Origin: Rhodobacteraceae bacterium DSL-40
GTDB lineage: Bacteria > Pseudomonadota > Alphaproteobacteria > Rhodobacterales > Rhodobacteraceae
Length of the DNA: 64,000 nt
NCBI GenBank assembly: GCA_003258405.1
Contig: QKPN01000009.1
Span: 62,001 to 126,000, forward strand
Direction: 5' to 3'
Position 1 is the first letter of the stretch. Every line of letters begins with the position of its first letter. Position numbers and translations under genes: made by a program. Below the pieces are notes generated by a model. That model made no database searches. It worked only from the letters and a program-made list of their open reading frames with translations, and was not told the origin of the DNA. Below, piece by piece: positions 9,402 through 64,000 of this stretch.

Positions 9402-9622
9402 CGCGGCCGATTGACGCCGGGCGTCTCACATCTCACATGGACGAGCGGTCATGGGCGCGTAAGCCGGGGTGATGCATCCGGCTTGTCGCCTCGGCCTGCA
9501 CTTCGGCGAGGACTGGTCAGTTGCCAGCCACGGAATGGCAATCAGCGCGCCGACCAGAGCGACGTCCCGCATTCAGAGTGCCATTCACTCTGAAGCAGAC
9601 TCGCGCTATATCAAGAAAGGAT

Positions 9623-9699
9623 TGGCGACCCCTCCAGGACTCGAACCCGGAACCTGCTGATTAGAAGTCAGCTGCTCTATCCTGTTGAGCTAAGGGGCC
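9623..9699 (-). tRNA. tRNA-Arg (anticodon TCT)
   Basis: On the minus strand the sequence folds as a full cloverleaf. The acceptor stem is GGCCCCT/AGGGGTC, the D arm TAGCTCAACAGGATAGAGCA, the anticodon stem-loop CTGA-CTTCTAA-TCAG, and the T arm contains GGTTCGAGTCC. The discriminator base is G and CCA is encoded. The loop places TCT at positions 34-36, which reads AGA. Confidence 0.95.
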
Positions 9700-9704
9700 G
9701 TCTC

Positions 9705-10016
9705 TCAGTGCGTCCAGGCGCCGCGGCGCTGGGCGGCGAAGTTGTCGCCATAGCCGTTCTGCCGGAGCACATGCGCCCGCGGCTTCGGCTCGAAGACCTG
9801 ATGCACGATGCCGTTCTTCTCGGCATAGGCAACGGCCTCTTCCTTGGTGTCGAAGCTCAGCCGCACCTGGGAGTTCATGTCGCCCGAGCCGGTCCAGCCC
9901 ATGAGCGGATCGAGGGTGCGTGCCTCTGCCGGCACGAACTCGAGAACCCAGCGCTTCGTCCTGGCCTGACCCGACTGCATGGCATTCCGGGCGGGCTTGA
10001 AAATTCTGGCGATCAT
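9705..10016 (-). CDS. NADH dehydrogenase accessory subunit, NDUFS4-like
   Basis: A 103-residue protein of the NDUFS4/ETC complex I family found in alphaproteobacteria and mitochondria. It begins MIARIFKPARNAMQSGQA and contains WVLEFVPAEARTLDPLMGWTGSGDM, SFDTKEEAVAYAEKNGI and KPRAHVLRQNGYGDNFA, all in family order. It stabilises the NADH-oxidising arm of respiratory complex I at the inner membrane. Start ATG 10016 is chosen because the family begins there. The tRNA-Arg gene follows 5 bp after the stop. Alphaproteobacteria usually carry this gene away from the nuo operon, as here. Confidence 0.9.
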   Translation of the reverse strand: MIARIFKPARNAMQSGQARTKRWVLEFVPAEARTLDPLMGWTGSGDMNSQVRLSFDTKEEAVAYAEKNGIVHQVFEPKPRAHVLRQNGYGDNFAAQRRGAWTH

Positions 10017-10284
10017 CGGACCAACTCCGCACAAGACACGTCTCCGCTTATGGCCAATTGCCGGCGCGGGATCAAGCCGTTGGCTTGGGGGGAGATCTGC
10101 GGGGGGAGGGGAGGGGAGCAGGGGATCGGGTCGTCAACCGGATACGAGGGAGCGAGGGGTGGGGTGGGTGTGCGCACCCGGCTGACGACCACTGTGCTGC
10201 TTGCAGGATTAGTAATACACGCATACCGGGCATACACGCAATGGTTTAGTTACTTAAAATCGACTGTATTGAAGGTGGAAAATT
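10017..10284. other. Intergenic region before uvrB, no gene
   Basis: About 270 bp between divergent genes (nearly 350 bp to the uvrB start). It contains a purine-rich tract (10090-10170) and a short direct repeat ATACACGCA at about 10211 and 10230. It becomes AT-rich towards uvrB. I see no GTTC-N7-GTTC (the alphaproteobacterial LexA box) here or up to the start codon. Confidence 0.5.
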
Positions 10285-10309
10285 TTAACCTTCGTTAACG
10301 ACTTCTTAA
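10285..10309. promoter_or_regulatory. CtrA-like site (TTAA-N7-TTAA) upstream of uvrB
   Basis: Three TTAA half-sites at 10285-10288, 10295-10298 and 10306-10309. The last two are spaced exactly 7 bp, the spacing of the CtrA consensus TTAA-N7-TTAA; the first two are spaced 6 bp. The cluster ends 55 bp before the chosen uvrB start, a position compatible with promoter control. AT-richness of the region makes chance occurrence possible. Confidence 0.5.
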
Positions 10310-10364
10310 CCTTGCCAATGGCGCTCCAAAGGCCAATGTGGAAAGGACCTTCCGGGAGATTTCG

Positions 10365-60599: not shown

Positions 60600-61055
60600 A
60601 TGCGCCCGACTTCGCTGCGCCGCGCACTTCTCGGCCTGACGATCGTGGGCGCGCTGGCTTCTGCCTGTGCGCCGACCGTCCGGGTGCATGGCTATGTCCC
60701 CTCCGAGGCGGACATCGCCACCGTCCGGCCGGGTGTCGACAATTACGAGAGTGTCGAGAAAGCCCTCGGCCGCCCGTCTTCCAGCGGTTTGCTGCAGGAC
60801 CGCTCGTGGTATTATGTCGAGAGTATCGTCGAGAACTACACCTACCACGCGCCAAGGGTCGTCGACCGGACGGTGCTTGCGGTGAACTTCAACGAGAACG
60901 GTGTCGTCTCGGGGCTCACGAAATACGGCCTCGAGGATGGCCGAATCGTCAACCTCACCGCGCGCACCACCGAGACCGGGGGCCGTTCGATGGGCGTGCT
61001 GGAGCAGCTCTTCGGCAACGTGCTCAACATCGATGCGGAGCAGCTCAACCAGTGA
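60600..61055 (+). CDS. bamE: Outer membrane protein assembly factor BamE
   Basis: A 151-residue lipoprotein of the SmpA/OmlA (BamE) family. The signal peptide ends in lipobox ASAC with Cys23. The mature domain has VRVHGYVPSEADIATVRPGVDNYESVEKALGRPS in sequence, SWYYVESIVENYTYHAP and VLAVNFNENGVVSGLTKYG. It stabilises the BAM complex at the outer membrane. It is divergent from the DUF177-rpmF operon, the conserved alphaproteobacterial arrangement. Confidence 0.94.
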   Translation: MRPTSLRRALLGLTIVGALASACAPTVRVHGYVPSEADIATVRPGVDNYESVEKALGRPSSSGLLQDRSWYYVESIVENYTYHAPRVVDRTVLAVNFNENGVVSGLTKYGLEDGRIVNLTARTTETGGRSMGVLEQLFGNVLNIDAEQLNQ

Positions 61056-61089: not shown

Positions 61090-61506
61090 ATGGCACACGA
61101 GTTCCGTCTCAGGGTCTATTACGAGGACACCGATGCAGGCGGTGTCGTCTATTATGCCAACTACCTGAAATTCGCCGAGCGGGCCCGGACCGAGGCGCTG
61201 CTCGGCCTCGGCATCTCGCAATCCGAGCTGCACGAGCGGCTCGGCCTGCTCTTCGTGGTGAAGGGAATCGCCGTCGATTACCGCGCGCCCGCCCGGCTCG
61301 AGGACAGGCTGGTCGTCCGCACCCGGCTGACCGGGCTCGGGGCCGCGCGCATTCTCATGGAGCAGCAGATCCTGCGCGAGGCCGAACTGCTCGCGCGCTG
61401 CGACGTGGCGCTCGCCTGCATCGGACCCGAAGGCCGCCCGGCGCGCATGCCGGCGAGCCTGCGCGAGACGATCGCGAGCCTCAAGGCCGCCGAACCCCGC
61501 GACTGA
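61090..61506 (+). CDS. ybgC: Acyl-CoA thioesterase YbgC
   Basis: A 138-residue hotdog-fold thioesterase of the YbgC/FadM group. The catalytic motif RVYYEDTDAGGVVYYANYLKFAERAR (split here around DTDAGGVVYYANYL) is at about residues 8-33. In most Proteobacteria the gene opens the tol-pal operon. Here it follows bamE by 34 bp and no tolQRAB gene follows. It probably hydrolyses short- or medium-chain acyl-CoA or acyl-ACP thioesters. ATG 61090 has GAGGAAG upstream. Confidence 0.93.
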   Translation: MAHEFRLRVYYEDTDAGGVVYYANYLKFAERARTEALLGLGISQSELHERLGLLFVVKGIAVDYRAPARLEDRLVVRTRLTGLGAARILMEQQILREAELLARCDVALACIGPEGRPARMPASLRETIASLKAAEPRD

Positions 61507-61594: not shown

Positions 61595-61903
61595 ATGACC
61601 GAACCGGGGGGTACCGTGGCCGTCGAATTTGACACCCATCTCGCGATCCCGCCCCTTCCGTCGGACTCCCGCCGCGCCGCCCGGACGGCCCTCAGGCTCT
61701 CGGGCAAGGTCGCGGCCGCGGGCGGCTTCGATGCCGCGATCGAGGCGGCGGTCGATGCGATATACGCCGCCGGCCCCGGCGATCCGCCGACGGAGCTCCA
61801 CCGCCTGCGGATGATCTACCGGGATTTTCACACCCGCGACGAGCTCCGCGATCTCGCGCGCGCCAGCCTGCGGCAGTTCGGGATCGTGAAGGCGGGGGGC
61901 TAG
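61595..61903 (+). CDS. Hypothetical protein, first gene of the PLD operon
   Basis: About 102 residues from ATG 61595; GTG 61616 behind GGGGGGTACC is an equally good start. The protein is helical: SRRAARTALRLSGKVAAAGG, FDAAIEAAVDAIYAAGP and HTRDELRDLARASLRQFGI. It has no signal peptide, membrane helix or known motif. It precedes the next gene by 2 bp, forming the head of a five-gene coupled string. I do not recognise a family. Confidence 0.65.
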   Translation: MTEPGGTVAVEFDTHLAIPPLPSDSRRAARTALRLSGKVAAAGGFDAAIEAAVDAIYAAGPGDPPTELHRLRMIYRDFHTRDELRDLARASLRQFGIVKAGG

Positions 61904-61905
61904 CC

Positions 61906-62160
61906 ATGTCCTATCCCGATCTCGGCTGTTTCGCGGAATGCCTCGAATGCGATCTCTGCGAGGACGCCAAGGACGACAAGGACGACATCGACCTCTTCGA
62001 CATCCCCGACGACTTCTTCGATGACGGCACGCCCGACTGGCTCGACCCGGACTGGGGTCCGCCACCCGATCCCGATGACGGGCTGGATTTCGACTTCGAC
62101 CTGCCGCCCGTCCGCCCGACCTGGGATCCCTGGGGCCTCGAATGGACTGGAGAGTTCTGA
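61906..62160 (+). CDS. Very acidic small protein with N-terminal cysteine cluster
   Basis: An 84-residue protein. Four cysteines near the start (CFAECLECDLCED: Cys8, 12, 15, 18) could bind a metal. The rest is dominated by Asp, Pro and Trp (KDDKDDIDLFDIPDDFFDDG, LDPDWGPPPDPDDGLDFDFD). The theoretical charge is strongly negative, reminiscent of DNA mimics or acidic chaperone tails. It is linked on both sides without spacing (2 bp before, 0 bp after). Family unknown. Confidence 0.7.
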   Translation: MSYPDLGCFAECLECDLCEDAKDDKDDIDLFDIPDDFFDDGTPDWLDPDWGPPPDPDDGLDFDFDLPPVRPTWDPWGLEWTGEF

Positions 62161-62442
62161 ATGGCGATGACACGAGATGAAACCACGCGCGCCCTCCGTG
62201 CCGCCCGGCGCTACGTCGATCTCTGCGACGCCTACCGTGCCACGAGTGCGGCGCATGACATCGTGCTCGGCCGCATCGAGGCCGGGCTCCGGCGCCGCGC
62301 CGCCTCGATGCCGCCCGAGCTCCTGACCGAGCGCATGGGCGTGGTGGCCGAGCGCCGGCTCAACGCGCGCCAGACCCATGCCACCTTCGTCACCCGCCGC
62401 CTGCAGGCGCTCTCCCGCCTCGACGAACTCGGGGGCGGATGA
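62161..62442 (+). CDS. Small helical basic protein of the PLD operon
   Basis: A 93-residue Arg- and Ala-rich protein: TRDETTRALRAARRYVDLCD, IVLGRIEAGLRRRAASMPP and ERRLNARQTHATFVTRRLQ. It is probably two long helices, basic in contrast to the acidic preceding protein. It starts directly after the previous stop codon and overlaps the nuclease-like gene by 4 bp (ATGA). It might form a complex with the acidic protein. No known family. Confidence 0.65.
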   Translation: MAMTRDETTRALRAARRYVDLCDAYRATSAAHDIVLGRIEAGLRRRAASMPPELLTERMGVVAERRLNARQTHATFVTRRLQALSRLDELGGG

Positions 62443-62990
62443 TGCCCGCCCCGCCCCGGTTCGACGGCATGGCCGCGATGGTCGATGCCCGGCTCTACCA
62501 GCCCTTCGCCCGCGAGAGCATCGAGCGTGCCACGACCCGCGTCTGGGTCTGCATGTTCATCTGCGACATCCGGCCCGGCCGCGATGTCGCGGGCCTCGTG
62601 CTCGACCTCCTGCTCGCCCTCGAGGCGCGCCGCAGGCTCGGGGTCGATGTGCGGGTGCTGCTCGCCTCGACCACGCGCACCGCCGATATCGAGACCGCGA
62701 ACCTCGCCTCGGGCATCTTCCTCTCCGAGCGCGGCGTGCCGCTCCGCCGCATCTTCGCCGACGAGATCGACCCGGAGGCCGCGCTGCCGCCCGAACGGCT
62801 CGGTTCGCACGCGAAATTCGCCATTTTCGACGATCTCGCCCTCGTCGGCAGCGCGAACTGGACCGATGACGCCTTCCGCGAGAATTTCGAGGAAACGGTC
62901 GCGCTCACCGGCGGCGGGGTAGACCTGCTCTGCGCCGAGTTCCTCCGCCTCTGGCGCAATGGACGGGGGATGCCGCGCCATGCCGCTTGA
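62439..62990 (+). CDS. Phospholipase D-fold protein with single HKD motif
   Basis: A 183-residue PLD-superfamily protein similar in size to the dimeric endonuclease Nuc. The HKD motif is H124-A-K126-F-A-I-F-D131, followed by LVGSANWTDDAF, a standard PLD ending. The N-terminus places ARESIERATTRVWVCMFICDI where Nuc-type proteins have the first strand, and no signal peptide is seen. It has one HKD only, so it should dimerise or pair with the product of the next gene. Nuclease or phosphodiesterase activity is likely; the target is unknown. Confidence 0.85.
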   Translation: MMPAPPRFDGMAAMVDARLYQPFARESIERATTRVWVCMFICDIRPGRDVAGLVLDLLLALEARRRLGVDVRVLLASTTRTADIETANLASGIFLSERGVPLRRIFADEIDPEAALPPERLGSHAKFAIFDDLALVGSANWTDDAFRENFEETVALTGGGVDLLCAEFLRLWRNGRGMPRHAA

Positions 62991-64000
62991 GCCCGCCACC
63001 GTCGCCCCGCTCATCGCCCTCTGGTCCGCGGCGCTCGCCACCCCCTGGACCGCGGCGGAGAAGGATGCCGTCGCCGCCAGCCTCGGCGCGATCGCGGGCC
63101 ATCTCGTGCCGCACCGCGTCGATGATGTCGCGCTCACGGAGCTGCGCTGGCAGGCCTTCCTCCTGCGCCGGACACTGGCCGCGGTCGAGGCGCCGCTCGT
63201 CACCGCGGCGGCGGGTCTCCGGCGCTATTACCGCATCACGCCGCCGAAACGCCGCGCCGACGGGGCGGGTCCGGCGATCGGCCTGCAATCGGCGACGCGC
63301 GCCGAGCTCGACACCCTGCCCGGCATCGGGGCGGCGCGGGCCGAGGACATTGCGCGCTATCTCGCCCGGCATCCGCGGCCCGACGGCATGGCGGAACTGG
63401 CCGCGATCCCGGGCATCGGCCCGGAGACGGTGGAGGGGCTCGCGGACGCGGCCTATCTCGAACCCGCCGTGCCGATGATCGTCATCGACGGTCTGGCCGA
63501 TTTCGCGGAAGCCCCGGGCATCCCGGCGCTTCTGCGCCTGCTCGAGACGGGTGATGCCCATGTCTTCACCGGCGATCACACCACGCGCCTGCGCCGCGGC
63601 GCCCCCGGCGGCACCCCGGCCGCGCGCTTTCTCGCCTTTCTCGACGATGTCGCCGAGCGCGCCTGGCGGGCGGCCGTCCCCGCCGAGGGCATTCTGGCGA
63701 GCGATGCCGCCGCCGAGCTCGACCGCGGCGCGCTCCATGCCGCCCTCCGTCAGCAGATGCACCCGGCGCCCGGCACGCTGCTCGTCAATGCCGCGTATGC
63801 GGTCGCGGTCCGGGCCGCGCTCGAGGCCGCGCAGACACGCGTCGATCTGATGATGTTCGTCGCGACCGGTTCGGCCGGGGTGGATGGCGCGCCGGGGCCG
63901 AAGGATCTCGTCGAGGCGCTGCTGGCGGCCAACGCGCGCGGCGTCGCGGTGCGCGTGATCCTCGATCAGGACGACGACGGCTATCCCTACAACAGCGCAC
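62980..64000 (+). CDS. HhH-PLD fusion protein, partial at window end
   Basis: Starts at ATG 62980 inside the end of the previous gene (11-bp overlap); the frame is open for 340 codons to the window edge. Residues ~105-160 carry two helix-hairpin-helix units (ELDTLPGIGAARAEDIARYL and ELAAIPGIGPETVEGLADA), a nonspecific DNA-binding fold. Residues ~160-255 are unassigned. From about 265 a PLD-like half domain begins (VRAALEAAQTRVDLMMFVAT, then LLAANARGVAVRVILDQDDD). Expected HKD motifs would lie beyond the edge. A DNA-directed PLD enzyme is the likely identity. Confidence 0.8.
   Translation, partial: MPLEPATVAPLIALWSAALATPWTAAEKDAVAASLGAIAGHLVPHRVDDVALTELRWQAFLLRRTLAAVEAPLVTAAAGLRRYYRITPPKRRADGAGPAIGLQSATRAELDTLPGIGAARAEDIARYLARHPRPDGMAELAAIPGIGPETVEGLADAAYLEPAVPMIVIDGLADFAEAPGIPALLRLLETGDAHVFTGDHTTRLRRGAPGGTPAARFLAFLDDVAERAWRAAVPAEGILASDAAAELDRGALHAALRQQMHPAPGTLLVNAAYAVAVRAALEAAQTRVDLMMFVATGSAGVDGAPGPKDLVEALLAANARGVAVRVILDQDDDGYPYNSA

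Follow-up and report, generated by a model that had tools for sequence, protein, structure and literature searches.

The end of the window, the 64,000-nucleotide stretch of Rhodobacteraceae bacterium DSL-40 DNA analysed here, carries a cassette of five genes, A to E, that fills its last 2.4 kb and the next 248 bases, the full set measuring less than 3 kb (Table 1). The genes are tightly packed, with a 2-bp gap between A and B, 0 bp between B and C, a 4-bp overlap of C and D and an 11-bp overlap of D and E. The original prediction had drawn these five reading frames and four junctions in the same way and had E running on past the window, and all of this is confirmed. Of the six frames at each gene, the assigned one gives the highest codon score (0.29-0.52 bits per codon), and the scores are comparable with those of ybgC, tolA and pal, which marks A-E as genuine genes of this genome. 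Within the cassette there is no consensus match to a sigma-70 promoter or a terminator. A second match to E in the C/D region, interrupted by two stop codons, was discarded since its part 5′ of the D start is in a frame that differs from that of C.

Table 1. Genes of the cassette and those bordering it
Feature	Position	Strand	Length	Description
bamE	60600-61055			Upstream of the cassette; Pfam BamE
ybgC	61093..61506	+		Thioesterase, precedes the cassette and lies outside it; start of the tol-pal cluster; Pfam 4HBT/4HBT_2
gene A	61595..61903	+	102 aa	No known family
gene B	61906..62160	+	84 aa	Very acidic; N-terminal CX3CX2CX2C cluster
gene C	62161..62442	+	93 aa	Basic; no known family
gene D	62439..62990	+	183 aa	Single-HKD PLD-like protein; PLDc_2 1.4e-13
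gene E	62980..64000, ends 248 bases past the window	+	422 aa	Pfam HHH 2.2e-10, PLDc_2; TIGR01259 comE 4e-10
tolQ	G000:C180:126544			Downstream of the cassette

The cassette lies in the tol-pal cluster. On its 3′ side the order is tolQ, tolR, tolA, tolB, pal, a cpoB-like TPR gene, a tilS-like gene and ftsH. Pfam supports the neighbours at the level of BamE, YbgC-type thioesterase, MotA/TolQ/ExbB, ExbD/TolR, OmpA, TPR, PP-loop and FtsH; position and sequence reading are the basis for tolA, tolB and for the names cpoB and tilS. None of the eight congeners that have the ybgC-tolQ region on one contig contains A-E. In six of these eight, ybgC and tolQ are adjacent with a spacing of 108-282 bp. The tolQ leader is retained 3′ of E and includes blocks such as CTGGACA and CCACAAG, common to several congeners. 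With this leader preserved, the cassette is inserted between ybgC and the leader that belongs to tolQ and does not amount to a disruption. Unrelated other genes occupy the ybgC-tolQ gap in two congeners, so that the gap looks like a site tolerating cargo or insertions. This cargo (L072:5555-6958 and L074:1414-2662) is in one congener a reverse-strand gene with a signal-like N-terminus and in the other a group of short reverse-strand genes, one of them transglutaminase-like by eye.

The three small proteins A, B and C have no convincing match in Pfam, and NCBIfam, PADLOC and PHROGs yield nothing beyond the PLD/HhH level. B has a net charge of about -25 and four Cys within 11 residues near its N-terminus, C has a pI of 11.2, and both A and C look helical from their sequences. 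Charge, pI and Pfam matches uphold the initial description of an acidic Cys-cluster protein B, a basic C, a single-HKD D and an HhH-PLD protein E.

PLD enzymes use two HKD motifs, supplied by a dimer, which may be a homodimer, or by two domains forming a pseudo-dimer. Nuc and NucT, for example, are single-HKD PLDs that form homodimers. D carries one HKD, and E combines an HhH with a single-HKD PLD; its layout comprises an N-terminal region, a ComEA-type HhH (about 95-158), a middle region and the PLD domain (about 270-420). Both proteins contain the HxK(x)4D ... GSxN motif in a PLD fold that is expected of a Nuc-like endonuclease. In D, the H, K, D and GSxNW are invariant in all four sequences available (this genome and those termed G1400, G772 and G1274). 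E keeps the H, D, G and W across homologues with Lys changed to Arg in G772 only, and the E of this genome has GAHNW at the GSxN position. The same Lys to Arg change in BrxL-HKD was judged likely active in a 2026 BREX survey (PMC12839542). None of the proteins A-E has a membrane-type segment; the top 19-residue hydropathy of E is 1.53 and falls inside the PLD domain. No secretion signal or injection gene was found for the cassette either, which weakens the roles in DNA uptake and injection that had been among those proposed.

An AlphaFold model of E built from two sequences was useless (pLDDT 39). From 22 sequences, an alignment that included Nuc-like ones, the model is of use for the HhH and PLD parts alone: the PLD part is confident (pLDDT about 90), the HhH is fair and the other regions are unreliable. 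The best solved matches of this model in Foldseek are Nuc (TM 0.81 by target length), Zucchini and NucT, and phospholipase D 7e0m is also among the solved-structure matches. This resemblance supports the earlier placing of the PLD parts with the nucleases of the superfamily. A tree was built of 29 PLD domains, a small sample with long branches whose finer points are unsafe; in it D, E, an HhH-PLD protein of the genome G1258 and one very long unrelated row lie on one side of a 95/99 branch and the 19 Nuc-like rows lie opposite. D and E thus share ancestry and group apart from the Nuc-like PLDs; support for the D group is 95/88. Within both D and E the sequences of this genome and G1400 pair with each other, as expected if the two genes travel together.

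Relatives of the cassette were sought in about 1,650 distinct genomes with queries that varied among them, making any frequency rough. D is absent from the 60 relatives searched. A search with E of 298 genomes of the family, 385 of the class and 398 of the phylum returned one similar locus, in G772. It holds a D homologue (35.8% identity, 4e-18) and, behind it, an HhH-PLD protein homologous to E (26% over residues 79-419). Against 369 genomes of G772's class, a D profile built from two sequences recovered G1400 (1e-48) and G1274 (2e-15); the identity of D is 54% in G1400, 34% in G772 and 27% in G1274. The distribution is patchy. Further D-E pairs are found neither in 24 genomes around G1400 nor in 11 around G1439. 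Searches of phage and plasmid proteins gave no full-length relative, the plasmid matches being generic PLD domains. Pattern scans of genome contigs (with D and E) and of viral contigs (with A, C, D, E, the G772 E and three alignments) likewise gave no full-length relative, but such scans catch close relatives only and are weak evidence. Many other matches to D or E were set aside as two-HKD cardiolipin-synthase-like proteins or single Nuc-like PLDs.

G1400 belongs to another class of the same phylum and has all five genes in identical order at a different site, with a 2-bp gap between A and B, a 4-bp overlap of C and D and a 14-bp overlap of D and E. The homologue of A, in the same position, is 34% identical (score 139 vs a shuffled maximum of 52). 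That of B is 61% identical with all four Cys kept and is the best conserved small protein, and that of C, at 38%, is the weakest of the five (score 67 vs a shuffled maximum of 59); E is 45% identical. In local alignment no shuffled sequence reaches the score of the real gene pair, with 1000 shuffles per gene and 200 for E. Judged by these alignments the recurrence of the five genes is not due to chance, and the conserved order bears out the claim that they form a unit. All five occur together in two genomes only, so that the conservation of A-C is a matter of one comparison.

D and E are adjacent in all four genomes in which they were found, and the other three loci lie outside tol-pal. G1274 and G772 keep the D-E pair without A-C and with unrelated small genes, namely 140 and 108 aa before D in the former, and 128 aa before D and 263 aa after E in the latter. 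Homology of A-C to these genes was rejected because the scores lie within or near the shuffled range; two marginal scores, of B against the 140-aa protein and of the G1400 C against the 263-aa protein, found no support from the partner sequence. The expected co-occurrence of the small genes with the PLD genes thus holds in G1400 and fails in G772 and G1274. Since these two keep only D-E, the pair is, on gene content, the core and A-B-C an optional, exchangeable module. By ORF reading, the G1274 set lies between transposase-type genes and the G772 set adjoins IS66-type genes. The transposase-like and IstB-like genes that flank D-E in G1274 (L132:4190-5509 and 9598-10359, on a 12-kb contig) suggest mobility.

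The libraries and papers covered contain no description of the system, whose enzymatic core belongs to a known kind, and the statement that no described system has this set of genes stands; the open-access papers searched on HhH or ComEA with PLD hold nothing describing it. Nuc of pKM101 and NucT of H. pylori resemble D and E in having one HKD per chain and the PLDc_2 fold, and they are the nearest structures to the PLD part of E. The active site of NucT is formed at the dimer interface, and NucT is linked to transformation (PMC5714352). In contrast to these enzymes, D and E group apart from the sampled Nuc-like PLDs, E has an HhH and a large N-terminal extension, and the two are encoded as a pair with small partners. 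For the PLD regions of D and E, DrmC of DISARM is the best or near-best match in PADLOC and NCBIfam, but at the PLD level only; NF038319 gives 50.4 and 39.2 bits, far below its cut-off of 133. No DISARM helicase or methylase occurs among the five genes, the scanned neighbours or the G1400 cassette. The profile of Mokosh MkoB has two PLD regions; the D of G772 matches the last and its E the preceding one, as expected if D and E together equal a split pseudo-dimer. However, the E-values in G772 are only 7e-11 and 8e-8, and the D and E of this genome and of G1400 all match the last part. The cassettes contain no Mokosh helicase or kinase partner, and the matches to MkoB/MkoC, which with DrmC are the best in PADLOC for D and E, are confined to the PLD part. 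Cardiolipin synthases and two-domain phospholipases D carry two HKDs per chain vs one each in D and E.

The HhH of E scores with TIGR01259 comE (4e-10) and with PDB ComEA chains. Unlike ComEA, E reaches 39.7 bits vs a cut-off of 152, has no signal or membrane anchor and is fused to a PLD. The HhH-PLD protein of G1258 (L134:6536-7525) also joins a ComEA-like HhH to a single-HKD PLD and groups with D and E, but it stands as a lone gene, without D or small-gene partners, and its N-terminus carries an apparent signal sequence. It is a possible exported DNA-binding nuclease.

The best explanation sees in the cassette an accessory operon that arrived by horizontal transfer and would produce a nucleic-acid-cleaving complex. 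Paralogous single-HKD proteins stand side by side in every locus found, which suggests that D and E each give one HKD and pair as a heterodimer whose active site is a composite of both motifs. HhH modules bind DNA, and that of E may grip the DNA backbone. A, B and C would recruit or restrain the nuclease and would be replaceable between lineages. B, whose four conserved Cys fall within 11 residues and whose net charge is about -25, is most likely an acidic metal- or Fe-S-binding regulator or a DNA-mimic brake. Patchiness, likely mobility and the type of nuclease favour defence against invading DNA as the likeliest biological role. Against defence, the loci read are not classical defence islands, and the present one lies among housekeeping genes. 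Since such islands and a known sensor are lacking, the explanation as a whole, from acquired operon and composite D-E nuclease through HhH grip and small partners to defence, is held with evenly balanced confidence; nucleic-acid cleavage taken alone is quite probable. The cassette encodes no helicase, ATPase or methylase, unlike most defence systems with a PLD protein. A previously undescribed defence system free of all three, built on a heterodimer of two single-HKD PLDs (one with a DNA-gripping HhH) and controlled by three new small-protein families, the acidic Cys4 protein among them, is put forward tentatively.

The same genes could also form an addiction unit akin to a toxin-antitoxin pair, with a toxic D-E nuclease inhibited by the acidic B together with A or C. 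The strong acidity of B, its place as the best conserved small protein (61%), the packing of the small genes before D-E and the patchy distribution all fit, but D-E persists without a B homologue in G772 and G1274, so that B is no universal antidote and such a unit is rather unlikely. Host DNA processing, whether repair, recombination or the handling of incoming DNA after uptake, is suggested by the ComEA-type HhH of E, by the G1258 gene that joins a ComEA-like HhH and a PLD behind an apparent signal sequence, and by the tie of NucT to transformation (PMC5714352). Yet E has no signal or membrane segment, no com gene is seen beside the cassette, and the absence of D and A-C from congeners argues against a core function; this role is unlikely.

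The PLD fold by itself cannot separate nuclease from lipid action. Its superfamily includes cardiolipin synthases, and the match to phospholipase D 7e0m and the place of the cassette between ybgC and tolQ would suit PLD proteins whose action on phospholipids is tied to the Tol-Pal envelope system. Such a link is very unlikely, given that the three other loci are not in tol-pal, that the HhH is of a DNA-binding type, that A-E are without membrane segments and that tolQ's own leader is retained downstream, as for a passenger. It is quite improbable, too, that D and E are separate homodimers and the small genes unrelated passengers, the whole being shared cargo and no complex. Nuc and NucT set the precedent of homodimeric single-HKD PLDs and the small genes differ in two of the four loci, whereas D and E lie next to each other at all loci found and the order of the five genes is kept between classes at 34-61% identity.

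An active site divided between two PLD genes, as in the composite nuclease preferred here, would be out of the ordinary, and a PLD-based defence module working without a helicase would extend the known anti-phage repertoire. The cassette is compact and apparently transferable, joining a PLD nuclease-like core to three families that no library recognises. Its size of less than 3 kb and its recurrence in two classes make its function directly testable in a laboratory strain.

Two further genes at the G772 locus deserve mention. The 263-aa protein directly after the E homologue (L087:7349-8140) belongs to no known family and is possibly a further partner. About 5 kb from D-E, another gene (L135:10451-11860) encodes a TIR domain joined to an FGE-sulfatase-type domain.
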